From: Dictyoglomus thermophilum H-6-12
Lineage (GTDB): Bacteria; Dictyoglomota; Dictyoglomia; Dictyoglomales; Dictyoglomaceae
Direction of reading: 5' to 3'
DNA length: 64,000 bases
Assembly: GCF_000020965.1 (NCBI RefSeq)
Contig: NC_011297.1
Coordinates: 1,522,525-1,586,524, forward strand
This document shows positions 5,951 through 48,160 of this stretch, in pieces. The notes beneath the pieces were generated by a model. That model searched no databases and was not told where the DNA came from. It saw only the letters and a list, made by a program, of their open reading frames with translations. The position numbers and the translations under genes were made by a program. How positions within the stretch are numbered: position 1 is the stretch's first letter; each line of letters opens with the position of its first letter.

Positions 5951-6265
5951 CTTTTCTATAAAGATCCTCAAATTCCCTATCTCAAAAAAATTCCTGTTAT
6001 AATCCTTATTGGCTATGCTTTAAGTCCTATCGACCTCATTCCTGATTTTATTCCCATCCTTGGATATCTTGATGATTATATAATATTACCCTTAGGTATA
6101 TATCTTTGTTTTAAATTAATCCCAAAAGATAAGCTAAAAGAATATGAAGAATATGTGGAAAAACAAGATTTATTCTTAAGAAAGAACTGGATATTTGGTA
6201 TAATTATTCTTCTCTTCTGGATAATCATATTGTTATTTATATTAAAACGATTGCTTATAAGTTAA
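5951..6265 (+). pseudogene. 5'-truncated DUF1232 (YkvA-like) membrane protein joined to the tRNA-Ser 3' end
   Basis: One uninterrupted frame from the base after the tRNA CCA to TAA at 6263 encodes about 104 residues. These include the family core YALSPIDLIPDFIPILGYLDD, a helix-forming charged segment, and a C-terminal membrane helix. What is missing is the first 15-20 residues and any start codon: the frame holds no ATG, GTG or usable TTG before the core and runs back into the tRNA, where it stops at 5912-5914. The coding part looks undecayed, so the truncation is recent, or it uses a rare start. The promoter/operator of the next gene lies in its last codons. Confidence 0.75.
6243..6254. promoter_or_regulatory. 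LacI-type operator, xylan set (site 1)
   Basis: TAAAACGATTGC: a CG-centred imperfect palindrome whose right half (GCAATC on the other strand) matches the site at 38944. It overlaps the -35 of the isomerase promoter, a position suited to repression. Confidence 0.45.
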
Positions 6266-6313: not shown

Positions 6314-7420
6314 ATGCCTTTTGTAGATCACCGCGCACAAAAAATTAGAAGATCCAAAGAGGAACTCTTAAAACACATGCAAACTTTTAAATTAGATCTT
6401 AAATTCTCGGTAGGAATTTGGTACTTTACTCCTGGTGGTGGAAGATTCCATGAGCCTTACGTAGAACAAAAGAGTATACCAGAAAGAATCGAGATGGCTG
6501 CTGAAATGGCCAAATTTGGAGTAAAAGGAATTGAGGCCCACTATCCTGCAGAGGTAAACGAAGAAAATCTCCATCTATACAAACAACTAGAAAAAGAAGC
6601 AGGAATAAGACTCGTCGCTGTACCATTAAGCTTATTCTACGATAAAATTTTTGAGTTTGGCTCTCTCTCTAATCCCTACGAAAAATACAGAAAAGTAGCC
6701 TATGAAAGATTAGTAAATGGATTAAAACTAGTAAAAGAGGCTAACGCTGATATTTGCATTATTTGGCCTGGAATCGATGGATATACTTACTCTTATGGAC
6801 ATCTCTACTACCATATGTGGGACACTTTTGAAGAATTAGTAGCTCAGGCTATGGATGAAGTGCCTGGAGTACAGGTGGCAATAGAGCCAAAACCCTACGA
6901 ACCTGCTCCTAATAACATATACAGAACTACTGCTGATGGAATCCTTGCTGCAAGAGATATTGAGGCCAGGTTAAAAAATCCTGAAAACTTGAAGTTATTA
7001 CAGGAAGGACATGCCCTCGTAGGACTTAATCCAGAAGTAGGCCATGTAAGAATGGGATTTGAAGACCTACCATATGCCTATGCCAGAGTAGCAAGAGAAG
7101 GAAGACTATTCCATACTCATTGGAATAGCCAACCCTTAGGAAACTATGACCAGGATTTGAACATAGGAGTGGTTGATTGGGATTCCACCGAAGCTCTCCT
7201 ATATACTCTAAAGATGGTAGGATATCAAGGATACTTTGGAATAGACATAAACCCAGAAAGAATGCCTGTAATCAAAGCCATTGAAATCAATACTAAAGTC
7301 CTTCAAATCATGAATGAAAGAATTGAAAGATTACCTCATGATAGAATCATTGAGTGCTACTTTGATCCAGAAAATCATAGAGGTGAGCTTGAATTAATTC
7401 TTGCCGAAAATCATAAATAG
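6314..7420 (+). CDS. xylA: Xylose-isomerase-like TIM-barrel sugar isomerase
   Basis: The 368-residue protein matches class I (actinobacterial-type) xylose isomerases along its length. Visible equivalents are the catalytic-base His in KGIEAHYP, the metal ligand Glu and Lys in AIEPKPYEP, Glu and His in GLNPEVGHV, the two Asp of YDQDLNIG, and the last Asp in GIDINPERM. The metal ligand equivalent to Streptomyces Asp245 is His269 here (FHTHWN instead of FHIDLN). The likely reaction is aldose-ketose interconversion, D-xylose to D-xylulose, in the cytoplasm, but the changed site leaves room for another pentose or deoxysugar. It is a single gene with its own promoter and LacI-type operator and is closed by a strong terminator. 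Confidence 0.75.
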   Translation: MPFVDHRAQKIRRSKEELLKHMQTFKLDLKFSVGIWYFTPGGGRFHEPYVEQKSIPERIEMAAEMAKFGVKGIEAHYPAEVNEENLHLYKQLEKEAGIRLVAVPLSLFYDKIFEFGSLSNPYEKYRKVAYERLVNGLKLVKEANADICIIWPGIDGYTYSYGHLYYHMWDTFEELVAQAMDEVPGVQVAIEPKPYEPAPNNIYRTTADGILAARDIEARLKNPENLKLLQEGHALVGLNPEVGHVRMGFEDLPYAYARVAREGRLFHTHWNSQPLGNYDQDLNIGVVDWDSTEALLYTLKMVGYQGYFGIDINPERMPVIKAIEINTKVLQIMNERIERLPHDRIIECYFDPENHRGELELILAENHK

Positions 7421-13365: not shown

Positions 13366-14040
13366 TTAGTTTAAATAAGTTCTAAAATATTTTGCAAACA
13401 AATCAAAAATCTCAGGAGTTATTCTAAAGCCTTGTTTTCCTTCCACTATTACCACATCATCAATATAAAAATCAAGATTGGGATTACTGGGGATCTCTAC
13501 ATATAAAGCTAAGTCAAGTATATTAACCCCAGCAGGTATCTGATAAGTCCCTGCAAGCTCTACCCATTTACCACCTGGCACCTCATTGTCATGCTTTATC
13601 CAATCATATTGAGTACTACTATCACTGTCATATTTTCTTCTCATTGTAATACCAACATGCTGTGGTAAATCTGAATTATGTTTTACCCATACAGATATAC
13701 TATAAACCTTACCTGGTTTCAAAATATCTTTTAATTGAATTTGAGCCCCGTTCCAACCTGCGGTTCTTCCTGTGACATATAAGCTATATTTCCCTGTATG
13801 AGCATCTTTATCCACTACAGCTACAGACACTCCCTCTCCATTAGGAGTCCACCCTTCAGTCTTTCCAGATTCAAAAGTAGTGATAAGAATAGCATTAGGC
13901 ACATTAGGAACTTCCTTTGCTACTTCCTTTACAGCTTCCTGAGGTACAGTAGTTTGTACAGCAGTCTCTTTAGGAGTACAACCAGCAATTATAAAAACAA
14001 ATCCTAACACTAAAAGGATGCTAAAAAGCTTTTTACACAT
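13366..14040 (-). CDS. Carbohydrate-binding lipoprotein (CBM4/9/22-like domain)
   Basis: The 224-residue protein has a signal peptide ending in a lipobox (FIIAGC, Cys21), a short Thr/Glu/Val-rich linker, and one beta-sandwich module (about residues 50-200). The module has the hallmarks of the CBM4/9/22 group: FESGKTEGW, GKYSLYVTGRTAGWNGAQI, LKPGKVYSISVWVKH and FYIDDVVI. CBM22-type modules bind xylan. It is the last gene of the importer operon, after a hairpin, so it probably captures oligo- or polysaccharide at the cell surface for the importer. There is no catalytic domain. Confidence 0.75.
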   Translation of the reverse strand: MCKKLFSILLVLGFVFIIAGCTPKETAVQTTVPQEAVKEVAKEVPNVPNAILITTFESGKTEGWTPNGEGVSVAVVDKDAHTGKYSLYVTGRTAGWNGAQIQLKDILKPGKVYSISVWVKHNSDLPQHVGITMRRKYDSDSSTQYDWIKHDNEVPGGKWVELAGTYQIPAGVNILDLALYVEIPSNPNLDFYIDDVVIVEGKQGFRITPEIFDLFAKYFRTYLN

Positions 14041-14098: not shown

Positions 14099-16015
14099 TT
14101 ACTGTTTAAAGAAAAATTGCTCAGGGAAAGAATTCAACTCAGATCTAAATGGGTCATCCCAAAGTATCCCATCTGGTACATTTCTTAGCTTGTTGTTCAC
14201 TATTACCAGTTGAGGAATACCTCCTACGGTTCCAATTATCCATATGTTCTTTCTATGTAAAGCTATAATCTGTCTTATAATTGTGTCTCTCCTTCTTGCG
14301 TCAACGGTTCTATTGAATTCATCCCATAGATCATAGATCTTTCTTATATCACCTGTAGGCTCCTCTCCTTCTTGTCCCTTAGTCCAATACCATCTTGCGT
14401 AAAGTGGTGCCCATGGCCCATCGGTCCATGTACCAAGAAGTCTTCCTGGAGATATGGCTACATTGCTCATTCTATCCAAAACCCAGACTCCTATTTCTAT
14501 ATCTCCCGAGTTACATTGAGTAGTATACAAACTCCTATCCACTTGCTTTATAATGGTCTTAATACCGATCGCTTCCCAATAACTCTTGATAAGCTCCATA
14601 GTACTCATATTAGCACTACCAGGATATGTGGTAAAACTTACCACAAGCTCAATTGGTTTTCCGTCAGGACCAATTCTAAATCCATCCTTACCAACTTTAA
14701 GTCCCATAGCATCAAGTAATATTTTGGCTCTTCCAGGATCATATTGAGCATATGCTTGAGCCCATGCCTTATCATAATAGGCGGAGCCTGGTGGAATAGC
14801 TGCCTGCATTGGCACTCCAAGTCCAAAGAATAAAATCTTGTTTATTTCTTCTCTATTTATGGCAAGAGAAAGTGCTTGTCTAAACCTCACATCCTGGAAT
14901 AACTTTCTTTTTACTGGATCCTTTACGTTTTGGTTCAAATATATGGCTGGGTCTGCACCTGTGCCTGTTCTCCATACAAGAATCCTATAATTACCTTTTT
15001 CTTTATTCTGCATAAATAACGTATAGTTAGGCAATCTCATGTGGCGAGCCTGAAAATCTATCTCTCCTGCCACAGCCTTCATATTAATCATCTCTGCATC
15101 ACTTACAAGATAATGAACTACTCTATCAATATAGGGCAATTGATTTCCCTCAGTGTCTACTACAGGATAGTATGGATTTCTCTCCATTACAAACGCTGGT
15201 TCATTGGGACTCTTACTTACAATCTTCCAAGGAGACATGGTAGGCAAATCAGGATTCTGAATATAATCGATCATAAACTGGAATAATTCATACCATTTAT
15301 TAAAACCTTTCTGCTTTGCGAGAGCCTCCAGCTTATCCTTTGGAGTATATTTCGGATGGAACTGCATTAAGTAATGTTTTGGAGCATAGAAAGCAAAAGA
15401 ACCTTTTGAGTTGTCAATAAACCATCCCTGGGTAGGGAAAGTATAAATAAACATTGGATTTGGATTCTTAAACTCAATTCTAAAAGTGTAATTATCTACT
15501 TTTACAAATTTAGCCCTAACACCATCTTGGACAAAAGCAGAAGGAAAAGTAGGAGTTAACTCTTCATTTCCAATTACATCCTCGTACCAGAATATTACAT
15601 CGTCGGTAGTCATAGGCTGACCATCGGACCACTTCAAACCCTCTCTTAACTTAAAAGTGAAAACTCTACCGTCTTTAGAAATTGTATATTTCTCTACCAA
15701 CCATGGAAGAATGGTCTTACTATCTGATGCCCATCTCATCAAGTTATTTGCATCATAGCAAATCTTAGCTATTCCCCATCTATCTCCAGGCCCCATCCAA
15801 GCTCTCCTAAGGGTTCCACCATAAACTCCTACTTCTTCTAAAGGTTTAACCACAATAGGATTCTTAGGTAATCTCTGCTCTACCGGTGGAAGTTTTCCTT
15901 CCTTTACAAGAGCGGCAGTCATAGGAGACTCATTATATTTTTTCTGTCCTACAATAGTGTTCCCAAAAATTAATATGAAGATTAAAAGAATGCTTAGGAA
16001 TTTAAAACATTTCAT
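14099..16015 (-). CDS. Extracytoplasmic solute-binding protein, family 5 (Dpp/Opp type), probably oligosaccharide
   Basis: The 638-residue protein has a Sec signal peptide (residues about 1-23) and family 5 landmarks: YGGTLRRA, FTFKLREGLKWSDGQPMTTDDVIFWYED, VRFRQALSLAINREEI. Family 5 proteins bind peptides, but in Thermotogales and related thermophiles many bind xylo- or gluco-oligosaccharides, and the long chain (over 600 residues) fits that group. The neighbourhood (CBM lipoprotein, LacI regulator) supports sugar. It is gene 5 of the operon 20187-13366. Confidence 0.85.
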   Translation of the reverse strand: MKCFKFLSILLIFILIFGNTIVGQKKYNESPMTAALVKEGKLPPVEQRLPKNPIVVKPLEEVGVYGGTLRRAWMGPGDRWGIAKICYDANNLMRWASDSKTILPWLVEKYTISKDGRVFTFKLREGLKWSDGQPMTTDDVIFWYEDVIGNEELTPTFPSAFVQDGVRAKFVKVDNYTFRIEFKNPNPMFIYTFPTQGWFIDNSKGSFAFYAPKHYLMQFHPKYTPKDKLEALAKQKGFNKWYELFQFMIDYIQNPDLPTMSPWKIVSKSPNEPAFVMERNPYYPVVDTEGNQLPYIDRVVHYLVSDAEMINMKAVAGEIDFQARHMRLPNYTLFMQNKEKGNYRILVWRTGTGADPAIYLNQNVKDPVKRKLFQDVRFRQALSLAINREEINKILFFGLGVPMQAAIPPGSAYYDKAWAQAYAQYDPGRAKILLDAMGLKVGKDGFRIGPDGKPIELVVSFTTYPGSANMSTMELIKSYWEAIGIKTIIKQVDRSLYTTQCNSGDIEIGVWVLDRMSNVAISPGRLLGTWTDGPWAPLYARWYWTKGQEGEEPTGDIRKIYDLWDEFNRTVDARRRDTIIRQIIALHRKNIWIIGTVGGIPQLVIVNNKLRNVPDGILWDDPFRSELNSFPEQFFFKQ

Positions 16016-16031
16016 AATTTTTACCTCCCCC

Positions 16032-17042
16032 TTAACTTATAGGCACACCACTTAAAGTTAATTCTTTAGCAAAATGGCATGCCACATAATGTTCATTGCC
16101 AACATCAATTAACTCAGGTCTCACCTCCCTACAGATATCCTTTGCGTAGTTGCATCTTGGATGGAAATAACAACCCAAAGGAGGATTGGAAGCATCAGGA
16201 ACCTCACCCTTTAGTAAAATTCTGCGAGTCTTAAGTTTAGGATCTGGTTTAGGAACCGCAGAAAGTAATGCTTCGGTATATGGATGCTTAGGACTTTCAA
16301 AAATTTCTTCCGTTTTTGCTAATTCTACAATCTTTCCTACATACATTACTGCTACTCTATCACATATATGCTCTACCACCGAAAGATCATGGGAAATAAA
16401 AAGATAAGTTAACTTAAATTCCTGCTGAAGATCCATAAGCAAGTTTAAAACTTGAGCTTGAATAGAAACGTCAAGAGCAGAAACAGGCTCGTCACAAACT
16501 ACAAGCTTAGGGTTTAAAGCAAGTGCTCTTGCAATACTTATCCTCTGTCTTTGTCCTCCCGAAAAAGCATGAGGATACCTCTTCATATATTCTGGTCTTA
16601 GGCCTACTTTTTTCATGAGATCTGCCACTCTATCATCAAGATCTTTGCCTTTTGCTATATTATTTACAATCAGAGGTTCTCCTATAATGTCCCTCACTGT
16701 CATTCGAGGGTTTAAAGATTTAAAAGGATCTTGAAATATCATTTGCATATATTTTCTTACATCTTTCAACTCTTTTGGAGAAAGCTTTGCCACATTTACC
16801 TCTTTTCCATCTATATGTAGTATTACATCCCCATCGGTAGGGTCATAAGCCCTCAAAATTACTTTTCCTGTAGTAGTCTTACCACAGCCAGACTCTCCTA
16901 CAAGGCCAAGCGTTTCTCCTTCTCTAATAAAAAAACTTATGTCATCCACAGCTCTTATTGTTGCTACTTTTTTCCTCAAAAAACCTTTGGTCACTGGAAA
17001 GTACTTTTTCAGATTTCTTACCTCTAATAACAAGTTATCCAT
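16032..17042 (-). CDS. Dpp/Opp-type ABC transporter ATPase (DppF-like)
   Basis: The 336-residue protein has Walker [10 protein letters not shown] (about residue 49), a Q-loop, signature [15 protein letters not shown], Walker [13 protein letters not shown], and an H-loop in [11 protein letters not shown]. The C-terminal oligopeptide-transporter extension carries the Cys-rich [11 protein letters not shown]...C pattern that binds an iron-sulfur cluster in this family. It pairs with the adjacent DppD-like ATPase, whose stop it overlaps by 8 bases. It energises import for the permeases encoded upstream. Confidence 0.92.
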
Positions 17043-18039
17043 GATTCTTCACCTCTCCATAAAGCAAACAACTTACTTTATGTCCTGGTTTCACCTCTAC
17101 AAGCTCTGGAATCCTTACATCACATAGACCTTTAATAAATTCAGGACATCTGGGATGAAAAGTACAACCTGTAGGAAGATTATAAGGATCTGGAACTATC
17201 CCTTTTATGGCTTTTAACCTTTTCCCCTTAACTTTCTTGCCAATTTTAGGAATAGATTCTAACAATGCTTTAGTATAAGGATGCATAGGACTGTAAAATA
17301 TCTCTTCCACTGGGGCGCTTTCTACAATTTTTCCTAAATACATTACAATAACCTCTTCAGCCATCTCAGCTATTACTCCTAAGTTATGAGTTATCATCAT
17401 AACAGCCATGCCAAATTGTTTTTGTAACTCTTTAAGAAGTTCAAGGATTTGAGCTTGTATAGTAACATCCAAATTTGTGGTCGGCTCATCTGCTATAAGG
17501 AGCCTTGGTCTACAAGAGAGCGCCATTGCAATCATAGCCCTCTGAAGCATTCCCCCACTAAACTGATGAGGATACTCGTCAATTCTCAGCTCAGGCCTTG
17601 GTATTCCTGCAATCCTCATTAAATCAATTACTGCTTCTCTTGCGGATTTTTTATCTAATTTTTGATGAAGCATTATAGCTTCCATTATTTGTTCTCCTAC
17701 AGTGTGTACAGGAGAAAAAGAAGCACCTGGCTCCTGAAATATCATAGCTATCTCTTTCCCTCTAATACTTCTTATTTCGTCTCCCTTAGGATCTAATTTT
17801 GCTATATCTATGACTTGTCCATCTTTGTATAACAAAATCTCTCCTTGAATCTTACTTCTTGGACCTGTAAGTTTTAAAATGGAAAGCGCAGTTACACTTT
17901 TCCCACATCCTGATTCTCCCACTACTCCAAGGGTTCTTCCAGGCTTAATCTCAAAACTTATCCCATCCACAGCTCTTACCGTACCCTCATCTAATACGAA
18001 ATAAGTTTTTAAATCCTTAACCTCTAAGAGTTTATCCAT
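17035..18039 (-). CDS. Dpp/Opp-type ABC transporter ATPase (DppD-like)
   Basis: The 334-residue protein has Walker [10 protein letters not shown], signature [16 protein letters not shown], Walker [13 protein letters not shown], and the family C-terminal extension ([11 protein letters not shown]...C) with four Cys spaced for a [4Fe-4S] cluster. The signature line begins FSGGM rather than FSGGQ, usual for DppD. It follows GGGAGG and overlaps the next ATPase gene, so the two subunits are made together. Confidence 0.92.
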
Positions 18040-18051
18040 CTCAATTCCTCC

Positions 18052-19188
18052 CTACCTTGCATAAGGATCTGCAGCATCTCTCAAACCATCACCCACAAAG
18101 TTAAAAGAGAGCACCACCAAAATCACAAAGAGTACAGGTAGCAATAGCCAAGGAGCTAAAGCTACAGTCCTAAAATTTTGAGCATCCTGTATTAAAACAC
18201 CCCAACTTATGGCAGGAGGTCTTATACCTAACCCTAAGAAGCTTAGGGAGGTCTCACCTATTATCATGCTGGGTATGGATAAGGTTAAAGAGGCTATAAT
18301 GTGACTTAGAAAAGAAGGAAGTAAATGTCTAAAGATTATCCTTCTCTCACTTGCTCCAGCAAGTTTTGCAGCAGTTACAAAATCTTCCTCACGGAGGGAT
18401 AGAAACTTACTCCTTACCTCCCTTGCCAATCCAGTCCAGCCAATAAAAGAAAGAATTATAGATATAGCAAAATACACTTTTACAGGAGACCAGTTAGCAG
18501 GAACAGCAGCTGAAAGAGCCATCCAGAGAGGTAGGGTAGGAATACTGCGCAATATTTCTATTATTCGTTGAATAATGATATCAAAAGGACCCCCATAATA
18601 CCCTGAGATTCCTCCTATAATGATGCCAAAAAGAAAGCTTAAAAATATCCCTACAAGCCCTACCGTAGTAGATATGCGGGTTCCATATATAACTCTAGAA
18701 AATACATCTCTTCCTAAACTATCAGTTCCAAAAAGAAATATGTGTCCACCCTCTTCCACTCCAAAAAGATGTATATTTGTTCTAAATAAGCCCAAAAGCT
18801 TATATTCATGCCCCCTTACAAAAAATTTTATATTATACTTTCTAGATTTATCCTCAGTATAAATTCTTCTTAATGTATTGGGATCTACCTCCATTTTATA
18901 TGCGTATACAAAAGGTCTCAGGTGAATTCCCTGCTCATCTACAAAATGGATCCTTTGAGGAGGAGCAAGAACATACCTTACATCATACTTATAGGGATCA
19001 TAAGGTGCAAAAAACTCACAAAAAGCTGCAATAATATAAAAAATTATTAAAACTACTAAGCCGATGATGGCGAGCTTATTTCTTCTAAATCTCCACCACA
19101 TCAACTTCCATTGAGAGGCAACATAAATCTTCTCTTCTTTTTCAGGTATTTCTTCTATAAATTCCTCTTTCCTTTCAATCTCCGCCAT
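18052..19188 (-). CDS. Dpp/Opp-type ABC permease (DppC-like) with enlarged outer loop
   Basis: The 378-residue protein has a charged cytoplasmic N-terminus, a first helix (about residues 37-60), then an extracytoplasmic stretch of about 100 residues before LFGTDSLGRDVFSR. That stretch is much longer than in ordinary DppC proteins (about 300 residues in total). The permease core has the EAA loop (AAKLAGASERRIIFRHLLP) contacting the ATPases, and five further helices. The enlarged loop may contact the unusually long binding protein. It pairs with the DppB-like permease encoded upstream. Confidence 0.9.
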   Translation of the reverse strand: MAEIERKEEFIEEIPEKEEKIYVASQWKLMWWRFRRNKLAIIGLVVLIIFYIIAAFCEFFAPYDPYKYDVRYVLAPPQRIHFVDEQGIHLRPFVYAYKMEVDPNTLRRIYTEDKSRKYNIKFFVRGHEYKLLGLFRTNIHLFGVEEGGHIFLFGTDSLGRDVFSRVIYGTRISTTVGLVGIFLSFLFGIIIGGISGYYGGPFDIIIQRIIEILRSIPTLPLWMALSAAVPANWSPVKVYFAISIILSFIGWTGLAREVRSKFLSLREEDFVTAAKLAGASERRIIFRHLLPSFLSHIIASLTLSIPSMIIGETSLSFLGLGIRPPAISWGVLIQDAQNFRTVALAPWLLLPVLFVILVVLSFNFVGDGLRDAADPYAR

Positions 19189-19203
19189 TTTTGCACATCC
19201 CCC

Positions 19204-20187
19204 TTATTCATACCTTACACGAGGATCTACCCAAGCAAGAAGTAAGTCGGATATTAAAGTGCCTAACATTGTTAGAAAACTTAACATAAGTAAAAAAGCC
19301 CCAGCCAAATACATATCTTGATTCCTCAAAGCTTCAAGAAGCAAAGGGCCAGAAGTAGGGAGATTTAAAACTATAGCTGTAATTTCAGCTCCTGAAACAA
19401 GGAATGGAAGAGACCAACCAACAGTACTTATAAAAGGAATCATAGCAACCCTTAAAGGATACTTAAATATTACTTTCCATTCCTTCAAACCTTTTGCCCT
19501 GGCTGTCAAAACATAGGGTTTATTTATCTCATCCAGAAGATTTGCCCTCAAAGTTCTTATCATTCCAGCAGTATTTGCTAATCCGATAATCACCACAGGC
19601 ACCCATATATGTTTTAACATATCTACAAACTTAGCAAAACTCCATTTAGCCTCTAAATATTCTGGCGAAAAAAGCCCTGTCAGATTTTGGCCAAAGTAAG
19701 CATAAGCAACCCAGAGAAGAATCAAAGCAACCATAAAAGCAGGTACCGAAAGTCCAATATAACCTAAAAAGGTAAAAAGATAATCGCCAAAAGAATATTG
19801 ATGAGTGGCAGAATAGGTACCTATCAGAAAACCTACTACCCAGATAAAAATAAGGGTAAAAAGAGATATAACAAAGGTAATAGCAAGTCTTTCACCTATA
19901 AGCTCACTAACTGGTCTATTATATAGTAAAGATCTTCCAAAATCTCCATGCAAAACATTCCAAATCCAAAGAAGATACTGCTCCCATATAGGTTTATCAA
20001 GGCCATACTGTTTTTTAAGAGCTTCTATAGTCTCCAAATTCACCGATTCACCACTCGTGGCAAGCTGAGCAATATATGAAGTTAAAAAATCACCAGGAGG
20101 AAGTTGAATAACTACAAAGACAATTATGGATACAAAGAAAAGAGTCAATAACATATAGAGAATTCTTCTTATCAGATATTCCTTCAC
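19204..20187 (-). CDS. Dpp/Opp-type ABC permease (DppB-like)
   Basis: The 327-residue protein has an N-terminal helix, the DppB signature LPPGDFLTSYIAQ, an extracytoplasmic KKQYGLDKPIWEQYLLW segment, and the EAA loop (TARAKGLKEWKVIFKYPLR). About six helices are present. The start is GTG 20187 behind GGGGAGG; a nearby ATG is closed by a stop codon. It is the first gene of the importer operon, downstream of a promoter and two LacI-type operators. Confidence 0.92.
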   Translation of the reverse strand: MKEYLIRRILYMLLTLFFVSIIVFVVIQLPPGDFLTSYIAQLATSGESVNLETIEALKKQYGLDKPIWEQYLLWIWNVLHGDFGRSLLYNRPVSELIGERLAITFVISLFTLIFIWVVGFLIGTYSATHQYSFGDYLFTFLGYIGLSVPAFMVALILLWVAYAYFGQNLTGLFSPEYLEAKWSFAKFVDMLKHIWVPVVIIGLANTAGMIRTLRANLLDEINKPYVLTARAKGLKEWKVIFKYPLRVAMIPFISTVGWSLPFLVSGAEITAIVLNLPTSGPLLLEALRNQDMYLAGAFLLMLSFLTMLGTLISDLLLAWVDPRVRYE

Positions 20188-20250: not shown

Positions 20251-20273
20251 AAAAACGTTTGCTAATCGTTTTG
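20251..20273. promoter_or_regulatory. Two overlapping LacI-type operators, xylan set (sites 2a and 2b)
   Basis: AAAAACGTTTGC (20251-20262) and CTAATCGTTTTG (20262-20273) are CG-centred and 11 bp apart, on the same helix face. They lie just downstream of the -10 of the importer promoter, in the gap between that operon and the divergent LacI gene. Confidence 0.55.
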
Positions 20274-20435: not shown

Positions 20436-21464
20436 ATGAGAAAAAGGGAAAATAAATCACCAACAATGAAAGATGTAGCCAGGCTCGCTGGCGTTTCTAT
20501 AAGTACAGTATCACATGTCATAAACAAGACCAGATATGTGGAACCTGAAACAAGAGAAAAAGTTTATCAAGCAATAAAAACTTTAGGGTATAGACCTAAC
20601 ATTCTTGCTAGCAGTTTAAGAAAGAGAGTAACTAACACTATTGGTTTGATTATTTCTAATATTACAAACCTTTTCTATCCTGAGGTAGTGCGGGGAGTTG
20701 AAGACCTTTTAGCAAAATATAATTATAACCTTATTTTATGTAACTCTGACGAAGATGTGGAAAAAGAGAAAAACTACATAGAGGTTTTATTTAGTAGAAG
20801 AGTAGATGGACTTATAATTACTCCTAGCAAAAGTAGTGAGACAAGAGAAAATCTTGACCTCTTTAGAGAAAAGAATATTCCTGTAGTCCTTGTGGACAGA
20901 AAAATTGAGGGATTAGAAGAAGATGTTGTTCTTGCGGATAACATAGAAGGGACATATGAAGCAATAAGTTATCTCATAAGCTTAGGACATAAAAGAATAG
21001 GAATAATAACAGGTCCATTAGATACAACTACAGGTTGTGAAAGACTCGAAGGATATTTAAAAGCCTTAGAAGATAAGGGGATTAAGAAGGATGATAACCT
21101 TATATACGAAGGAGACTTCAAAAAAGAAGGTGGTTATAAGGGAGTAGAAGCTCTACTTAACATAAACAATCCACCCACCGCTATATTTACCAGCAATAAC
21201 CTTATGGCCTTAGGTGCTCTTAAAAAGATAACAGAACTTGGATTAAAAATACCTCAGGATCTTTCTTTAATATCCTTTGATGACATGGACTGGTTCCCGT
21301 ATTTCTCTCCTCCTCTAACTGCAGTCTATCAGCCAGCCTATGAATTGGGCGAAACTGCAGTAAAATTACTTTTCGAAAGATTAAAGAGAGGAAGAAAAAA
21401 AAGAAAAGAGGTAAGATTACCTACAAAGTTAATTATAAGAGAATCTTGTGCACCCCCTAAATAG
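20436..21464 (+). CDS. LacI-family transcriptional regulator (candidate xylan regulator)
   Basis: The 342-residue protein has a helix-turn-helix MKDVARLAGVSISTVSHVIN (residues about 11-30) and a complete hinge helix YRPNILASSLRKR, including the leucine that pries open the central CG step of LacI operators. The periplasmic-binding-protein-like ligand domain follows (GLIISNITNLFYPEVVRGVE, TAIFTSNNLMALGALK). AAGGAGGAG lies 11 bases before the ATG; a shorter form starting at MKDVARLAG is possible. It is divergent from the importer operon, and CG-centred operators lie between them. Similar sites elsewhere suggest it acts on several xylan genes. Confidence 0.92.
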   Translation: MRKRENKSPTMKDVARLAGVSISTVSHVINKTRYVEPETREKVYQAIKTLGYRPNILASSLRKRVTNTIGLIISNITNLFYPEVVRGVEDLLAKYNYNLILCNSDEDVEKEKNYIEVLFSRRVDGLIITPSKSSETRENLDLFREKNIPVVLVDRKIEGLEEDVVLADNIEGTYEAISYLISLGHKRIGIITGPLDTTTGCERLEGYLKALEDKGIKKDDNLIYEGDFKKEGGYKGVEALLNINNPPTAIFTSNNLMALGALKKITELGLKIPQDLSLISFDDMDWFPYFSPPLTAVYQPAYELGETAVKLLFERLKRGRKKRKEVRLPTKLIIRESCAPPK

Positions 21465-25302: not shown

Positions 25303-27369
25303 TTAAGGATATATTTTTCTACCTTTTTCGTCAGGTATTCCTGTCCTTCTAAAGAAATATGTATTTATAACATCTCTCCATTCTTTTGCATGTTCTACCT
25401 GCATATTCAATCTTTGTAAAACCCTTTCATATGTCTTATCATCAATCTTACCCTTAAGCTCAATCCATCTTCTTCTAATCTCTTCTGCCTCTTCTACCCC
25501 TTCAAAATGCAAATCATAATAAGTCTGAAGCAAAGTTTTTCCTGACTTTAACCTATAATTATAAGGTACTCTATGGAAAAATAATAAAAGCTCTTCAGGA
25601 CAAGTATCTATGCTATCATAAATTTCCCTCCAGGGAGAGTGATACTGAAGAGTATACCCTGTACCTCTTGAAGATCTGTCAACACCTATTGCTTCGTAAT
25701 TTGCTCTGTGATAAGTGCCCCATTTTGAGTATTCATATCCCTCAGGATTAGGCCCATAGTGATGCCCTGGATTTACCATCCATCCAAGTCCTAAAGGAGT
25801 AGTATACTTTTCATAAGCCTTATGGGAATTTAATAACATATATGATATGTTCTCAACCACTTTTTCATCATCTCCAAAAGTTAACTTTATCCATCTCTCT
25901 ACAATTTTTTCTATCTTCTCATCAGGATTCCAAGCCAACTCTCCAAAAGTGTACAAATTAGCTTGAGCAAGGTCATGTCCTGTCCAATTAATATTATCCC
26001 CTACATTTGACACTCCTGCCATACCATTATTTTTTATTTTAAAAACACTTCCCTTTAATATTTCTTTTACTTCTGATCCCTTCCCCTTTGCATAAGTATC
26101 AAATTCAAGAATCTCTTTCCACAAGACACCTAAATAGCATAAATGTATTTGTTGCCCTGTATATTCTTGAGTTATTTGCAATTCTAATATTTGATTAGTT
26201 TGTTCAAGTCCTCCAAAAAGGGGATTTACAGGCTCTCTAACTTGAAAATCCATAGGTCCATATTTTATTTGCACTATGACATTATCCATAAATTTACCAT
26301 CAAGAGGCTTAAAATTATCATAAGCAGCTTTTGCTCTATCAGTTTTCACATCTCTCCAATCTTGCAGACAATTATAAACAAAGGCTCTCCATATAACAAA
26401 CCCACCATAGGGTTCTAAAGCCTCTCCTAACATATTTGCTCCATCAGCATGAGTCCTGCCGTACATGTGAGGCCCTGGATTAAATTCCGAGTCAGCCTTT
26501 ACTAAAAAACCACCAAAATCTGGAATATACTCGTATATTTCATCGACTTTAGTCTTCCACCATAACGAGACTCTCTTATCAAGAGGATCAGCAGTATTTA
26601 AACCACCAAGGTATATAGGAGAAGCAAAATTAATAGAAAGATAAATCTTAATACCATAAGCCGAAAAAATCTTAGCAAGTTCTTTTAATTTTTTTAAATA
26701 AGGTATTGTCAACAATTCTACCTCTTTTTTCTTCACATTAACATTGTTAATAACTATCCCATTAATTCCAATTGATGACAGCAATCTTGCATAGTCTTTA
26801 GTTCTATCATTAATAATTATTTTATTATCCTTAAAAAATATAGAGTTTCCCGCATATCCCCTTTCCACACTTCCATCAAGGTTGTCCCAATGATTCAAAA
26901 TTCTAAATTTCAAAGAAGGATTACTCAAAAAATTTATTTTATCTATATCTTCACCCAGCTTTAACTTCTCAATTAATTTAAATACTCCGTAAATAAGGCC
27001 AACGTACTCCTTAGCAGTAAGTATCAAAATACTATTTTCTCCAAACTCAACTTTCTTAATTAAAAACCCTTCCTCTCCTAAAGAAAATTCAAATTCATCA
27101 AGACCTTTTAAAACTTTCCTAACATCCGATAATTTTCCAATTAATACAAAATTAGAAGTGTTTGCAAATGTGTTCCTAAAAATTTTAGGTTTAATACCTA
27201 AAGAATAGGTTAGAAAATCTCTTAATTCCTTCAAAGGCAAATTCAAGCTATTATCCCCCAGAACAACAATATTACCAAAGATCCTTCTATACTTATCTCG
27301 ATACTTGTTAAGATCAGTATATTCTAACCAACACATGCTATAAGGTTTAATTTCAGCCATAAAATTCAC
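25303..27369 (-). CDS. aguA: Alpha-glucuronidase, GH67
   Basis: The enzyme removes (4-O-methyl)glucuronic acid from xylo-oligosaccharides. At 688 residues it has normal GH67 length. Visible catalytic residues in their usual spacing are the acid Glu in [10 protein letters not shown] (about 294), Asp in [11 protein letters not shown] (about 372), and Glu in QITQEYTGQ (about 401). There is no signal peptide, so it is cytoplasmic and acts on imported aldouronic acids. The start is GTG 27369; an ATG four codons in is an alternative. A long leader of about 120 bases follows the promoter. It is co-transcribed with the UroD-like gene. Confidence 0.95.
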
Positions 27370-27493: not shown

Positions 27494-27523
27494 ATTATAC
27501 ATTATTTAAAATCGTTCATGCAA
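27494..27523 (-). promoter_or_regulatory. Promoter of the alpha-glucuronidase operon
   Basis: On the minus strand TTGCAT (27523-27518) and a perfect TATAAT (27499-27494) are spaced by 18 bases. The operator overlaps the -35/spacer. Confidence 0.5.
27508..27519. promoter_or_regulatory. LacI-type operator, xylan set (site 3)
   Basis: AAAATCGTTCAT is CG-centred. The adjoining TCATGCAA is shared with the region around site 4 at 38944. It is the weakest palindrome of the four. Confidence 0.4.
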
Positions 27524-27648
27524 ATGTTTTAAAAAGAAATATAGTAACACTTTAATATATTAGTAAACAAAACTAAAAATCTATTTCTATACATTTTATT
27601 AAAAAAGTAGTAAAATAATAATCAAAAAAAGATAGAGGTGAGACAAAT

Positions 27649-30746: not shown

Positions 30747-31703
30747 TTAAGTATATAAATAACACTTAACTAATCTACCATCTACCTCTACATCAGGCAC
30801 TGGATTCTTACATTTTTCCATTCTATATTGACATCTACTTATAAATTTACAACCCTTCATCTGATATTCTTCCTCTTCCAGAGTAAGAATCTTTATATCC
30901 TTAGTCCATTTCTTCTTAGGATCTGGCTCTGGTATAGATTCCTTAAGAAGCATTGTGTATGGATGTTTTGGATCCATCAACACCTTTTCTACAGGTCCTA
31001 TTTCTACTATCTCTCCCCTAAACATTATAGCTATTTTATCACTTACATAGTAAGCAGTAGCAAGATCATGAGTAATATAAAGAACACTTACCCCCCTTTT
31101 TTCTTTAAGATCTTTAAATAAGTTTACTATTGACATTCTTAGAGACGCATCAACCATAGAAACAGGCTCGTCAGCAACAAGTAGAGTCGGATTTGTCAAA
31201 AGGGATCTTGCTATAGAAATTCTCTGTAATTGTCCTCCTGAAAACTCACTAGGGTATTTGTCTTTTACTTCATTCCATGTTAATCCCACAAGATTTAATG
31301 CAGACTCTATAACTTCTTCAGGCTTTTCGCTTATACCAAAATTTCTTACAGTCTCTATCAAGTAATTACTAACTCTCCTCAACGGGTTAAAGGTCTCAAA
31401 GGGGTTTTGGAATACTGCCTGTACTTCTTTTCTTAATACATTATTAGACTTTTCCTTCTGCAATTCAAACATATCTTTTCCCTTGTATAATATCCTACCA
31501 CTAGTAGGCTCTAAAAAGCCAAGTATTATCTTCGCTACTGTTGTTTTCCCACTTCCACTCTCACCTGCTAATGTAAATATTTCGGAGTTTCCTATCTCAA
31601 AGTTTACATTATTTACAGCTCTAATCCTTATCCTGGAAAATACACTTCCAATAGTAAACACCTTATTTAAATTTTCAACTTTTAAAAGTAATTCTTGTTT
31701 CAT
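30747..31703 (-). CDS. Dpp/Opp-type ABC transporter ATPase (DppF-like)
   Basis: The 318-residue protein has Walker A AGESGSGKTTVAK, signature FSGGQLQRISIARSL, Walker B LLVADEPVSMVD, and a C-terminal extension with a reduced Cys pattern (KGCKFISRCQYRMEKC...C). I start it at ATG 31703 (MKQELLLK), behind AAAGGAGAGG. The longer frame would start upstream of this ribosome binding site. It is the last gene of the importer operon that begins with the binding protein at 38847. Confidence 0.92.
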   Translation of the reverse strand: MKQELLLKVENLNKVFTIGSVFSRIRIRAVNNVNFEIGNSEIFTLAGESGSGKTTVAKIILGFLEPTSGRILYKGKDMFELQKEKSNNVLRKEVQAVFQNPFETFNPLRRVSNYLIETVRNFGISEKPEEVIESALNLVGLTWNEVKDKYPSEFSGGQLQRISIARSLLTNPTLLVADEPVSMVDASLRMSIVNLFKDLKEKRGVSVLYITHDLATAYYVSDKIAIMFRGEIVEIGPVEKVLMDPKHPYTMLLKESIPEPDPKKKWTKDIKILTLEEEEYQMKGCKFISRCQYRMEKCKNPVPDVEVDGRLVKCYLYT

Positions 31704-31705
31704 GG

Positions 31706-32692
31706 CTATTCCCTCTCCTTTGAATATAAAAAGCAAGCAACTCTGTGATTTGAATCTATGTTAACAAGCTTGGGAACAAAATTCCTACAATCTTCCGTTG
31801 CATAATTACATCTTGGATGAAATCTACATCCTTGTGGAGGATTCAATAATGAAGGTGGAGCACCTGGTGCACTAACCTTATATGATTTATCCCCTATCTT
31901 AGGTAGAGCTCCTATAAGGTACTTTGTATATGGATGCTCTGGTTTCTCAAAAATGATTTCTGTCGGTGCTTCTTCCACAATCTTTCCTGCATACATAATA
32001 GCTATCCTATCGGATATACTTGCATGAACTCCCATATCGTGGGTAACAAGTATTATGGTATTTTTAAGATTCTTCTGTATGTCTTTTAATAACTGAATTA
32101 CCGCTCTTTGGGCAACCACATCAAGAGCTGTAGAAGGTTCATCAGCAACGATTATTCTAGGAGTTAAAACCGTAGCAAGAGCTATAGTCACTCTCTGCCT
32201 CATACCTCCAGAAAGTTGATGAGGATAAGCATTTAATATTTTAGTAGGCAAACCTAAAAGAGTTAGATAATCTTCTATATGTTTTCTCCATTTAGTTCTA
32301 TCTGAAATATCTTCATGAGAACCTATAAAATCCCAGAAAGAATCAATTATTTTAGTAACAGGGTTCAGCACACTCATAGATCCTTGAGGAATATATGAAA
32401 TATATTTCCACCTTATCTTATCTAATTCTCCGTTAAGAGAAAAGACATCTTTTAATTCACCATTTATTTTGTAATATACCTTTCCATCTATAACATTTAA
32501 GGGCGGTTCTACCATTCCATACAAGGTTTTTATCAAGGTACTCTTACCACATCCAGATTCTCCCGCAATTCCATATATTTCATTTTCTTTTATATTTATA
32601 TCTACCCCATCTACTGCTCTTACAGATTTTAATTCTCCACCTATATCCAATAAATAATAAGCCTTTAAATTTTCTGCTCTTAGAATTTCCAT
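31706..32692 (-). CDS. Dpp/Opp-type ABC transporter ATPase (DppD-like)
   Basis: The 328-residue protein has Walker [14 protein letters not shown], signature LSGGMRQRVTIALATV, Walker B IIVADEPSTALD, and a C-terminal [15 protein letters not shown] extension suited to an iron-sulfur cluster. It lies two bases upstream of the DppF-like start and four bases after the permease, indicating tight coupling. Confidence 0.92.
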   Translation of the reverse strand: MEILRAENLKAYYLLDIGGELKSVRAVDGVDINIKENEIYGIAGESGCGKSTLIKTLYGMVEPPLNVIDGKVYYKINGELKDVFSLNGELDKIRWKYISYIPQGSMSVLNPVTKIIDSFWDFIGSHEDISDRTKWRKHIEDYLTLLGLPTKILNAYPHQLSGGMRQRVTIALATVLTPRIIVADEPSTALDVVAQRAVIQLLKDIQKNLKNTIILVTHDMGVHASISDRIAIMYAGKIVEEAPTEIIFEKPEHPYTKYLIGALPKIGDKSYKVSAPGAPPSLLNPPQGCRFHPRCNYATEDCRNFVPKLVNIDSNHRVACFLYSKERE

Positions 32693-32696
32693 TTCA

Positions 32697-33557
32697 TCAC
32701 TCCTTTATAACTCTTATTCTTTGAATTCTTGTACGTGGATCAAGATATTCACTTATACCAACTGAAAGTAAATATAAACTTACAAAAAGAAACACCGAGG
32801 TCACAACAGGAGTAAATAGCCACCACCAAAGTCCTAAAAGTAAAGCTTGATAGCTTAATGCCCATTGAAGCATAGTACCTAAGGTTGGTATTTCCAAGTT
32901 AGTCAAACCAAGAATAGCAAGGGTCATTTCCATACCAATAGCCCAAGACATATTATTTATGAGAGTTGAAAAGACAATAGGTATGACAAAGGGAAAATAT
33001 TCTTTAAAAACAAGACTTAAAGTCTTAGAGCCAGAAAGAAGTGCAGTATAAGTAAAATCTCTTTCTCTTAAACTTAATATTTGAGACCTTATAACTCTTG
33101 CATCCCAACTCCAACCAAAGAAACTCAAAATCAAGCCTAATCCTATAAAACTTAATCTTCCTTTTATTAAGGATGAAATCAATATCAAAATAGGAAGCAA
33201 TGGCAAAACGAGGAAGCTATCGTTTATGCCCATAAGAACTCTATCTATACTGCCACCCCTATAGCCAGCCACCAGCCCCACAATTATAGCTATGATTCTT
33301 GAAAAGAAAGCTGCTATTATCGCTATTGTCAAAGAATTCCTTACAGCAAAAGTCAACTGCCAGAAAACATCTTGCCCTTGAGAATTAGTCCCTAAAATAT
33401 GCTGAAGGGAAGGAGGCATATCTCTTGGGACAAGATTCCATCTTGTAGGATCATAAGGAGAAAAGAAAGACAGTATGGCTAAGAAGAGAATAATACATAT
33501 GATTATAAAACCTAATCTAAACTTTCCATCTCGCAGTAAATCCCTTAATACTCCCAT
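32697..33557 (-). CDS. Dpp/Opp-type ABC permease (DppC-like)
   Basis: The 286-residue protein has six helices, the N-terminal FFSPYDPTRWN and LGTNSQGQDVFWQ motifs of DppC, and an EAA loop (ALLSGSKTLSLVFKEYFPF). Unlike the DppC-like permease at 18052 it has no enlarged outer loop. It is in the same operon as the GH3 enzyme and the binding protein at 36967. Confidence 0.9.
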   Translation of the reverse strand: MGVLRDLLRDGKFRLGFIIICIILFLAILSFFSPYDPTRWNLVPRDMPPSLQHILGTNSQGQDVFWQLTFAVRNSLTIAIIAAFFSRIIAIIVGLVAGYRGGSIDRVLMGINDSFLVLPLLPILILISSLIKGRLSFIGLGLILSFFGWSWDARVIRSQILSLRERDFTYTALLSGSKTLSLVFKEYFPFVIPIVFSTLINNMSWAIGMEMTLAILGLTNLEIPTLGTMLQWALSYQALLLGLWWWLFTPVVTSVFLFVSLYLLSVGISEYLDPRTRIQRIRVIKE

Positions 33558-33585
33558 AGCTATTACCTCTTTTTCCTTATAGTTT

Positions 33586-34587
33586 TTATCTATATCTTAC
33601 CCTTGGATCAAATAACGGATACAAAAGATCAATAATAAGAATGAAAGAAGAAATACCTATAATTGATATAGTAGCAATTCCCATTATTAAATTAAAATCT
33701 CCAGTAGCAATGGCATTATATAAGAGTGTACCCATACCAGGGTAAGAAAAAACAATCTCAGTAATTAACGCCCCACTAAAAATTTGCCCCATAGAAAGGG
33801 CCAAATTGGTAACCTGAGGAAGCATAGCATTTCTTATTACATATTTAAAGGCAATTATTCTCTTTTTAATACCACCAGCCTTTGCATATGTAACAAAGTC
33901 TTCCTTTACAATATTAGATACAATAAGTCTCATGGTTTGCAAAGTCACTGCAATTCCTAAGATCATCATAGATATTAAAGGTAAGAAGGCATACCTAAAA
34001 AGCTCTAAAATAAAGTGTAAGCTAAAACTGGGCCTTACTCCAATAGGCATTCCACCACCTAAGGGGAACCATTTTAGGATATATGCAAAAACCACAAGAA
34101 TTATAAGTGCAAAAACATAATAAGGAATAGGGCGAATAAACATAGCTATTCCTTCAAGTATTCTCGCCCATTTTTTATCATAATAAAATCCTACAATTCC
34201 CCCTAAAATATTACCAATAATCCAAGATAAAAATGTACTTACAGTCAAAAGACCAACAGTCCAAGGTAGGGAATCTCCAATAAGTTTTATTACTGGAATT
34301 GGAAATCTAAATAGTGATGGACCAAAATCGCCCTTAAAAAGCCTTACCCAAAAATTAACATACTGTTCAAATAAACTTCCTTTTAAACCATAAAGTTCTT
34401 TTAGGGATTCTGTCATCTGCTCTACAGCTTTAGGATCAAGGTAAGTACCCATCTTCATTATTGTACTAATCATCTGTTGAACAGGATCTACAGGAGTAAA
34501 CCTTGGCACAAAGAATACAATAGTTACCCCCACAAAAATTACAAGCAAGTACTGTAAAAATCTTGGTATTAAATACTTTTTAAGCAA
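33586..34587 (-). CDS. Dpp/Opp-type ABC permease (DppB-like)
   Basis: The 333-residue protein has an N-terminal helix and FFVPRFTPVDPVQQMI signature, about six helices, and an EAA loop (YAKAGGIKKRIIAFKYVIRNA). It starts at TTG 34587 with GGAGGTG well placed upstream. The preceding GH3 stop codon lies 40 bases upstream. Confidence 0.9.
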   Translation of the reverse strand: MLKKYLIPRFLQYLLVIFVGVTIVFFVPRFTPVDPVQQMISTIMKMGTYLDPKAVEQMTESLKELYGLKGSLFEQYVNFWVRLFKGDFGPSLFRFPIPVIKLIGDSLPWTVGLLTVSTFLSWIIGNILGGIVGFYYDKKWARILEGIAMFIRPIPYYVFALIILVVFAYILKWFPLGGGMPIGVRPSFSLHFILELFRYAFLPLISMMILGIAVTLQTMRLIVSNIVKEDFVTYAKAGGIKKRIIAFKYVIRNAMLPQVTNLALSMGQIFSGALITEIVFSYPGMGTLLYNAIATGDFNLIMGIATISIIGISSFILIIDLLYPLFDPRVRYR

Positions 34588-34611
34588 TTTTTCACCTCCA
34601 TAAAATTTTTG

Positions 34612-34637
34612 AAATTATTTTACTAAATTATTTTACT
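34612..34637. repeat. Tandem 13-bp duplication at the GH3 stop codon
   Basis: AAATTATTTTACT occurs twice in immediate succession (34612-34624, 34625-34637). The GH3 stop codon (34628-34630) lies in the second copy. Confidence 0.7.
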
Positions 34638-36898
34638 ATAAAAAAGCCCTTTAATCTTATATCCTCTGAAGAGCTCCCAATTAAAACCTCAAACCTTCCA
34701 GGCTCTACTACAAGCTCCATATCCATACTTAAAAACTCAAGATCTCTTCTATTAAGTTTAAAAGAAACTGTCTTTCTTTCTCCTACATCAAGCGTTACCC
34801 TTTCAAATCTCTTAAGCTCTTTTATTGGTCTCGCTACACTTGCAAACTCATCATGCAGATAAAGCTGAACCACCTCATCTCCTTTGTATTTGCCTATATT
34901 CTCAATATCAAAGGTTATTACAACTTCGCCATCTCTTGGAATCTCCTCAGGGGTTATACGCAAATTGCTATACTTAAAATCCGTATAAGAAAGCCCATAT
35001 CCAAAAGGAAAGAGATATTGATTTCCCCTTAAATCTACATAATCATCAACCCTACCTGAAGGTTTATGATTGTAATAAAGAGGCAACTGGCTTGAATACT
35101 TAGGAAAAGATATTGGCAATTTTCCTCCCGGATTATAATCCCCAAAAAGCACATCAGCTATAGCATTACCGCCTTCTTCTCCTGGGTACCATGCCTCTAT
35201 TACCGCTTGTACTTTATCAATCCAGTTCATCATAGTTATAGCACTACCATTTATGAGCACTACAATTACTGGAGTATTTGTATTACAAATCTCCTTTATA
35301 AGATCTTCTTGTACTCCTGGCAAATTAAGATTATGTCTATCTCTTTGTTCTCCTTCTGTCTCAGGAACAGAATTCCCCATAAATAAAATCGCCACATCAC
35401 TTTTTTGAGCTATCTTAATAGCCTCATCAAATCCAGATTTAGAAGTATCATTTAATCCGCAACCTTCAGCAAAATAAACTTTGACTTTATCTCCAAGCTT
35501 ATTCTTTATACCTTCAAGAGGAGTAACTACCTTTACTCCATAACCACTATATCCTCCTAACCTCGGTACAGCCGCATTTGGCCCAATAACCGCTATGGAT
35601 CTTATATCTTTATTTAATGGTAAAATTCCTTCATTTTTCAGAAGCACTATAGACTCTCGTGCAACTCTTAAGGCTAATTCTCTATGTTCACTACAATCAT
35701 TTATTCTCTCTGCATAATCGGGATCTACAAATGGATTATCAAAAAGCCCAATCCAAAACTTTACTCTTAAAACTCTCCTTACTGCTTCATCGAGGGTATC
35801 TTGAGATAACTTACTCTCTCTAATAAGACCTGGAATCTCTTCAAAACAGTCACTATCAGGAAGTTCCATATCCAGTCCTGCTTCTAAGGAAAGCTTTGCT
35901 GCTTCAGCTTTTGACTCAGCTACTTTATGTTTTGTCATCAAATGAAGCACTGAAAAGTAATCTGAAACTACATATCCCTTGAATCCCCATTCCTTCCTCA
36001 AAATCCTTGTTAATAGCCATTTATTTGAAGAACATGGAATGCCATCAAGGGAATTATAAGCAGCCATAAGAGATAAAGCTCCTGCCTCCTCTATACTTGC
36101 CCTGAAAGCTGGAAAATATATTTCTCTCAAAAGCCTCTCAGAGAAATGTATAGGATAGCTATCCCTTCCACCGTCCCCCACAAAATTTGCCACAAAATGC
36201 TTTGGAGTAGCAATAACCCCCTGTTCTTGAACCCCTTTTATATATGCCACGGCCATCCTAGAAGCAAGGTATGGATCTTCCCCATAAGTTTCTTCCGTTC
36301 TACCACATCTAGGATCTCTTGCAATATTTATAGTAGGTGATAAAACCTGATGTATTCCTCTTGATCTCGTTTCTTTACCAATAGCAGTAGCAACCTGATA
36401 TATAAGCTCTGGATTCCAAGTACTTGCCATTCCTATGGCTTGAGGGAAAATGGTAGATCCTTTTGCCATACATCCATGCAAAGCTTCATCATGTATCAAT
36501 ATGGGAATTTTAACTCTACTATTTTCCAGTACATACTTCTGAATTTCATTCGCAAATTGAGCACTTTCCCTAGGAGACATAGATCTCAAAGCACAACTAA
36601 GCTCACCTATCGGATACTTTTTTTCTACTCCCTCTAAAACTACTTCTTTCCACATTTTTTTCCATAATGTTTTTGTCATTCCTTCAGCTAATTCTCTGTT
36701 ACTATAAAAATTAAAAATAAAGCCCATAATTTTTTCTTTAAGTTCAGGCCTTAGTTCCGAGAAAAAATCTTCTAAAAGTAATTTTCCAATAACTTTGGAA
36801 ATAGATATACTTCTTGCTTTTAATTGGGCTACTTTTTCGTCTAAACTCATACTTGAAAGCAAAGATTCTATCTTTTCTTCAATTTTTTCCTTTTCCAT
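34628..36898 (-). CDS. GH3 beta-glycosidase (beta-xylosidase or beta-glucosidase)
   Basis: The 756-residue protein has the GH3 N-terminal barrel with the nucleophile Asp in YVVSDYFSV (about residue 312), the KHF motif (ATPKHFVANF), a second alpha/beta domain (LLKNEGILPL...VAILFMGN), and a C-terminal fibronectin-like domain (about 640-756). There is no signal peptide, so it acts in the cytoplasm. It lies between a binding protein and permeases and carries an extended N-terminus of about 130 residues before the HDEALHG segment, as in many GH3 beta-xylosidases. Context (GH67, shared operator type) favours xylo-oligosaccharides; beta-glucosidase activity is possible. Confidence 0.9.
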   Translation of the reverse strand: MEKEKIEEKIESLLSSMSLDEKVAQLKARSISISKVIGKLLLEDFFSELRPELKEKIMGFIFNFYSNRELAEGMTKTLWKKMWKEVVLEGVEKKYPIGELSCALRSMSPRESAQFANEIQKYVLENSRVKIPILIHDEALHGCMAKGSTIFPQAIGMASTWNPELIYQVATAIGKETRSRGIHQVLSPTINIARDPRCGRTEETYGEDPYLASRMAVAYIKGVQEQGVIATPKHFVANFVGDGGRDSYPIHFSERLLREIYFPAFRASIEEAGALSLMAAYNSLDGIPCSSNKWLLTRILRKEWGFKGYVVSDYFSVLHLMTKHKVAESKAEAAKLSLEAGLDMELPDSDCFEEIPGLIRESKLSQDTLDEAVRRVLRVKFWIGLFDNPFVDPDYAERINDCSEHRELALRVARESIVLLKNEGILPLNKDIRSIAVIGPNAAVPRLGGYSGYGVKVVTPLEGIKNKLGDKVKVYFAEGCGLNDTSKSGFDEAIKIAQKSDVAILFMGNSVPETEGEQRDRHNLNLPGVQEDLIKEICNTNTPVIVVLINGSAITMMNWIDKVQAVIEAWYPGEEGGNAIADVLFGDYNPGGKLPISFPKYSSQLPLYYNHKPSGRVDDYVDLRGNQYLFPFGYGLSYTDFKYSNLRITPEEIPRDGEVVITFDIENIGKYKGDEVVQLYLHDEFASVARPIKELKRFERVTLDVGERKTVSFKLNRRDLEFLSMDMELVVEPGRFEVLIGSSSEDIRLKGFFIVK

Positions 36899-36936
36899 TT
36901 CCCAATTACTCCTTACTTCAATTTCTTTAATTTTTT

Positions 36937-36956
36937 AGCCCCCCTTTCGGGGGGCT
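36937..36956. terminator. Hairpin after the binding-protein gene; U-tract only on the opposite strand
   Basis: An 8-bp stem (AGCCCCCC / GGGGGGCT) with loop TTTC lies 10 bases after the binding-protein stop. The run of T follows it on the plus strand (TTTTTTATTTTT), where no gene reads. On the coding strand it is followed by A/T sequence without a U-run. Confidence 0.65.
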
Positions 36957-36966
36957 TTTTTTATTT

Positions 36967-38847: not shown

Positions 38848-38943
38848 ACAACAACCCCCTCTTCTACAGAAATTGAATCAATAATTGAAACTTAGCTTTA
38901 ACTTTTAGAAAAAACACCTCCTTCCCTTAAGAAAAACAATCAT

Positions 38944-38955
38944 GCAATCGTTTCA
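38944..38955. promoter_or_regulatory. LacI-type operator, xylan set (site 4)
   Basis: GCAATCGTTTCA is CG-centred and close to the GCAAACGTTTGC type. It lies just downstream of the -10, over the predicted transcription start. Confidence 0.55.
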
Positions 38956-48143: not shown

Positions 48144-48160
48144 GAAGAAATCGATTCTAA

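Follow-up and report, generated by a model that had tools for sequence, protein, structure and literature searches.

Dictyoglomus probably possesses a regulon for xylan and xylo-oligosaccharides that is governed by a LacI-family protein, encoded at position 20436 of the 64-kb stretch of the chromosome (1,959,987 bases in all) of the thermophile D. thermophilum that was analyzed here and is referred to as the window. Candidate operators with a central CG are enriched before xylan genes and are conserved between species. Comparative sequence evidence is the basis throughout: the sites, their conservation, the gene neighborhoods and the match of the recognition segment are established by the analysis, and it is from such evidence that we infer binding, repression, an inducer and co-regulation by the protein at 20436.

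Candidate operators and their genes

Five LacI-type 12-mers had been listed in the first-pass annotation, and all are present where it placed them, at 6243 (ttAAAACGATTGC), 20251 (AAAAACGTTTGC), 20262 (CTAATCGTTTTG), 27508 (AAAATCGTTCAT) and 38944 (GCAATCGTTTCA). Its account of the neighboring genes likewise holds, namely GH67, GH3, two Opp-type importers, a CBM_4_9 lipoprotein and the LacI protein. The sites at 20251 and 20262 form a paired overlapping operator, AAAACGTTTGCTAATCGTTTT (20252..20272), with two CG centers 11 bp apart, situated between lacI (20436..21464, plus strand) and an Opp-type importer operon (14099..20187, minus strand) that encodes two permeases, two ATPases and an SBP_bac_5 binding protein and ends with the CBM_4_9 lipoprotein gene (13366..14040, minus strand). 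This pair lies just downstream of the importer promoter, which reads TTGACT-17-TATATT on the minus strand. At 38944 the operator GAAACGATTGCATGATTGTTTT (38933..38955, minus strand) combines a strong core with a degenerate second core 12 bp off; it stands directly behind a perfect TTGACA-16-TATAAT and precedes genes for an SBP_bac_5 binding protein (SBP), a GH3 glycosidase and a second Opp-type importer (30747..38847, minus strand).

The operator AAAACGATTGC (6244..6254, plus strand) is found before the gene for a xylose-isomerase-like TIM-barrel protein (6314..7420, plus strand). The best PDB matches of this protein are xylose isomerases, at 81 bits, and it scores far below the xylose isomerase cut-off (TIGR02631, 85.8 versus 447 bits); its identity as a true xylA product and its substrate are uncertain. 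Upstream of the GH67 alpha-glucuronidase gene (25303..27369, minus strand) lies a weaker candidate operator, AAAATCGTTCATGCAAATGTTTTA (27508..27531, minus strand), which is without the diagnostic GC, having no TTGC half-site, and is the weakest of the sites first listed. A URO-D-type (methyltransferase-like) gene (24238-25287) adjoins GH67, and such a gene is also encountered beside GH67/CBM genes in the relative G006; a part for its product in demethylating methyl-glucuronoxylan is no more than speculation.

All of these sites had been described as overlapping promoters or lying just downstream of them. The description stands for 38944 and for 20251/20262, where -35 and -10 boxes are clear; the promoters assigned at 6243 and 27508 are less convincing. 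Most other sites found in this work likewise follow a -10-like sequence.

One further CG-centered site, missing from the earlier list, is located at 48149..48156 between a second LacI gene (47094) and an arabinofuranosidase gene. It is probably outside the xylan regulon and part of a separate arabinose-type regulon. The site before the D. turgidum lacI gene orthologous to that at 47094 reads AAAAACGTTTTTATAAAA.

Conservation in relatives

The relative G001 (1,855,560 bases) is taken to be D. turgidum; gene calls in the relatives were mechanical. The isomerase element AAACGATTG is kept in all six of the six genomes compared, which represent two genera; the DNA upstream of it has diverged and cannot be aligned. 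The relatives retain AAAACGATTG before the isomerase gene. The operator at 38944 can be followed through four genomes, being kept in D. turgidum and G003 and having a similar counterpart in G004. For the importer pair three genomes are informative: it is identical in D. turgidum and has changed inner letters in G002 (AAACGCTTTGCAATCGTTT), where the importer genes are no longer between lacI and the CBM lipoprotein gene. In G004 a GCAATCGTTTG site precedes the start of the lacI orthologue by about 44 bp; the G006 orthologue is positioned apart from the xylan genes, and no site precedes it.

The pair of cores at GH67 recurs before the GH10-GH67 genes of D. turgidum as AAAATCGTTTATACAAATGTTTTT. 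In that genome the stretch between operator and GH67 encodes a GH10 xylanase of 1044 residues that carries CBM9 and CBM_4_9 domains (L116:7540-10674); this xylanase is absent from the D. thermophilum GH67 locus. Sites are also kept in D. turgidum at the GH11, xylulokinase, CE4 and GH3 genes and at both extra SBP genes, and the GC-type element appears elsewhere before GH39 (G002), GH3 (G004), and CBM and transketolase genes (G006). An esterase orthologue directly follows GH11 in D. turgidum; this fits the literature (PMC5167688), where a feruloyl esterase and a secreted xylanase are annotated under the adjacent numbers Dtur_0242 and Dtur_0243.

Distribution across the genome

The genome was scanned with consensus patterns combined with footprinting. 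The 1.96-Mb genome contains six copies of the strict pattern AAACGNTTGC, two inside genes and four in promoters, namely those of the isomerase gene, the importer/lacI region, the SBP/GH3/importer operon and an SBP gene at genome position 21877, whose product is 74% identical to the D. turgidum counterpart of the binding protein of the window's importer. The looser core AAWCGWTT occurs 66 times, 31 of them intergenic by simple gene calls, and once nine intergenic occurrences in repeated sequence are left out there remain 22 sites at 20 loci.

Xylan- or xylose-type genes are found behind 11 of these 20 loci, and five of the other nine adjoin other lacI genes. The xylan-type loci comprise the isomerase, importer and SBP/GH3/importer promoters, two more SBP genes, a GH11 xylanase gene with a double site (genome position 1933110), and genes for xylulokinase (site at 778302; the protein scores 621 bits against a curated cut-off of 380), GH3, a CE4-type deacetylase, an esterase and a CBM9 protein, the CE4-type deacetylase and the CBM9 gene being counted as xylan-type by our own judgment. 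No site was found in the stretches directly upstream of the GH10 and GH39 genes of D. thermophilum. Enrichment before xylan genes, which the first-pass annotation had proposed to check with a position weight matrix, is thus borne out by consensus patterns and footprinting. Its suggestion of a coordinated set of genes within 32 kb fares less evenly: xylan-type genes do carry the sites, but since the looser core also precedes the GH11, xylulokinase, GH3, CE4, esterase and CBM9 genes, the predicted regulon extends genome-wide and well beyond a single 32-kb block.

Simple counts of CG-centered sites are inflated by repeats containing AAACGTTTGT. AAWCGWTT-type sites at genome positions 48643-50170 and 178618-181592 recur in such repeats (L072:3100-6200, L068:2440-3980), which from their appearance may be CRISPR-type repeats. 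One repeated context, TTGAAGATAAAACGTTT, is present at 229133, 238004 and 264156, within about 35 kb (L074:2434, L075:2505, L078:2457). Intergenic sites in either kind of repeat are those omitted from the locus count above. Just outside the window, LacI-like ligand-binding domains without a helix-turn-helix (HTH) are encoded at G000:C1:1591906-1592751 and 1594093-1594941, within extended open frames (725 and 1082 residues).

The candidate regulator

The LacI protein at 20436 was favored as regulator from the outset, a choice strengthened by a recognition segment that is unique among the 11 LacI proteins of the genome and by GC-flanked sites before the lacI genes of its Chloroflexota homologues. 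Its family is evident from matches to PF00356 (76.5 bits, cut-off 27) and PF13377 (128.8 bits), and predicted operators with a central CG lie near the promoters of genes linked to it. The segment TVSHVINKTR is present in this protein alone, the other ten carrying TVSRVLN, TVSRVIN, TVSRALN, TVSFVLN, AVSFALN or TVSNVIH; it aligns to PurR without change and is invariant in all six orthologues of the 20436 protein. A PurR/RbsR-like recognition segment is therefore found together with a GC-flanked, CG-centered predicted operator. PurR-type sites read GCAAACGTTTGC in a table compiled for H. influenzae (PMC3739930), which supplies both the CG center and the TTGC half-site seen in the Dictyoglomus sites, and the occurrence of TVSHVINKTR in the 20436 protein fits such a half-site.

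The Chloroflexota homologues (40-45% identity), which are of the same recognition type, provide a link between this type of protein and the motif that does not depend on Dictyoglomus. Before their own lacI genes stand GC-flanked pairs with a 12-bp spacing, reading GCGCAAACGATTGCGCAATCGTTTGCGC at L177 (457-476) and GTAAGCGTTTACGCAAGCGCTTACGC at L183 (5997-6016), and the pair at L216 has a weaker upstream member (482-510). At L177, genes for a PfkB kinase and an ABC transporter follow lacI. These comparisons support the protein at 20436 as the best candidate regulator of the sites. Its effector pocket has DTTTG where PurR has ERNTG, and the position corresponding to Arg190, which serves purine binding in PurR, is not Arg. 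Because this Arg is missing and the protein also falls below the cut-offs for PurR (NF007979, 317 versus 501 bits) and RbsR (307 versus 531 bits), a purine co-repressor would be unlikely.

A possible alternative, to be entertained tentatively, is that several LacI proteins share the sites, the GC-type operators (isomerase, importer, SBP/GH3) belonging to 20436 and the AT-type ones (GH67, GH11, xylulokinase, CE4, GH3) to paralogues or a global carbon regulator. Sites of the form AAAACGWTTT do flank other lacI genes (15730, 497966, 1843837 and, in the window, 48149), and a similar core is found at the arabinofuranosidase/LacI(47094) locus in both Dictyoglomus species. However, the AT-type sites too fall mainly on xylan genes, a second core 12 bp away is also present at several AT-type sites (GH67, GH11 and CE4 of D. 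turgidum), and a LacI gene of another subtype is not seen beside them. With 20436 as the preferred repressor of the regulon, plain AAAACGTTTT-type sites could still serve other LacI paralogues as well, and for these the assignment of a regulator is not certain.

Paired cores and the proposed mode of control

Second cores are over-represented at a distance of 12 bp, with z values of about 6 on one side (+12) and about 5 on the other relative to mononucleotide-shuffled flanks. Many of them are degenerate, some promoters have none, and the spacing may be 11, 12 or 13 bp; the importer promoter has the strongest pair, with the cores 11 bp apart. As the sites overlap, a simple row of two independent dimers was discarded as an explanation of the pair.

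The recurrence of a second core 11-13 bp away could also mean that a regulator outside the LacI family reads a 20-24-bp dyad, AAAACG-N9/10-CGTTTT, as a single site; a ROK-family XylR of the kind that controls the same gene set in Thermotoga maritima (PMC3750489) would be an example. Such a reading is improbable, given that the spacing varies and many second cores are degenerate or lacking, that every single core bears the LacI signature, and that LacI relatives in the Chloroflexota have paired cores before their own genes.

For the LacI protein at 20436 the following scheme is proposed. The protein would act as a PurR/RbsR-like dimer on CG-centered operators with at least one TTGC half-site, for which the consensus would be AAAACGWTTGC and the ideal operator GCAAACGWTTGC. 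As most operators coincide with the -10 box or follow it closely, a repressor bound there would prevent initiation until released by a xylan-derived inducer; that the operators follow -35/-10 or -10-like sequences makes an initiation block with release by such a sugar the most likely mode. Many promoters have a further core, for the most part degenerate, 12 bp off (11 at the importer). It is conceivable, albeit rather unlikely, that this LacI branch, in Dictyoglomota and Chloroflexota alike, in fact recognizes as its unit two overlapping cores 11-12 bp apart with their middle TTGC half-sites in common, occupied either by a pair of overlapping dimers or by a single dimer alternating between two registers, for graded repression.

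Chance occurrence of the core

Over the window as a whole AAWCGWTT is not over-represented, with five occurrences against 2.7 expected and 15% of shuffles reaching five. All five, that at 48149 among them, are confined to non-coding DNA, which makes up 6.5% of the window and in which 0.28 would be expected; none of 1000 shuffles reaches five there. For the stricter AAACGNTTGC the window has three copies where 0.08 would be expected, a count that no shuffle reaches. A loose 14-mer with three mismatches does not discriminate, giving 389 forward and 362 reverse matches against 386 and 394 for the control. The plain 8-mer count is thus insufficient, and it is position, flanks and conservation that rule out chance placement for AAWCGWTT. 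That the sites are AT-rich chance matches chosen by eye, as the unremarkable total might suggest, is very improbable, the cores being all intergenic, kept across species and enriched at xylan genes, and this reading is refuted for 6243, 20251/20262 and 38944; at 27508 (AATCGTTC), which fits neither AAWCGWTT nor AAACGNTTGC, the comparison with D. turgidum is the sole evidence against it.

Significance

The Dictyoglomus case adds a further example to the well-known LacI-type control of xylan genes, and no published regulon of this kind for the Dictyoglomota was found in the literature searched. It offers a xylan regulon open to experimental test in a phylum that is exploited for its heat-stable hydrolases, proposes a function for one LacI protein, and would tie unlinked genes for GH11, xylulokinase, CE4, GH3 and extra binding proteins to one pathway.

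Comparison with known systems

The best PDB and NCBIfam matches of the 20436 protein are with PurR/RbsR of Escherichia coli and its relatives, PurR being the best PDB match. With PurR it shares the recognition segment, the TTGC half-site and the central CG; the difference is that its predicted sites are at sugar genes rather than purine genes.

Overlapping LacI-family operators are known at 110 operons, GntR at gntKU being an example with sites about 13 bp apart (PMC4052901), so that the Dictyoglomus arrangement is not new in kind. Both consist of two CG-centered sites that overlap by a few bases, whereas in Dictyoglomus the spacing is 11-12 bp and the second core is often degenerate.

Two further parallels are xylan regulators, of which the first is the closest system known. 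XynR of Anaerocellum (Caldicellulosiruptor) bescii is a LacI-family protein, its binding measured by FP and BLI, that controls xylan genes at several loci, with targets including xylulokinase, the xyl3A beta-xylosidase, xylanases, alpha-glucuronidase and ABC transporters; no Dictyoglomus orthologue of XynR is listed in that work (PMC8579813, PMC12285236). The two systems, compared here by operators and targets, have in common a LacI-family regulator, CG-centered operators and a very similar gene set. They differ in that the XynR operator flanks are GAAANCG / GTAAACG (GAAANCGNTTTC-like) and without TTGC, and in that xylA is under a ROK-type XylR in A. bescii. The XylR of Thermotoga maritima, also of the ROK family, controls xylA, xylB, xylanases, glucuronidase and xylo-oligosaccharide importers (PMC3750489), nearly the same functions under a protein family unrelated to that of 20436. 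The comparison suggests that in Dictyoglomus a PurR/RbsR-like branch of the LacI family takes the role played by XynR in the Caldicellulosiruptorales and by the ROK-type XylR in Thermotoga.
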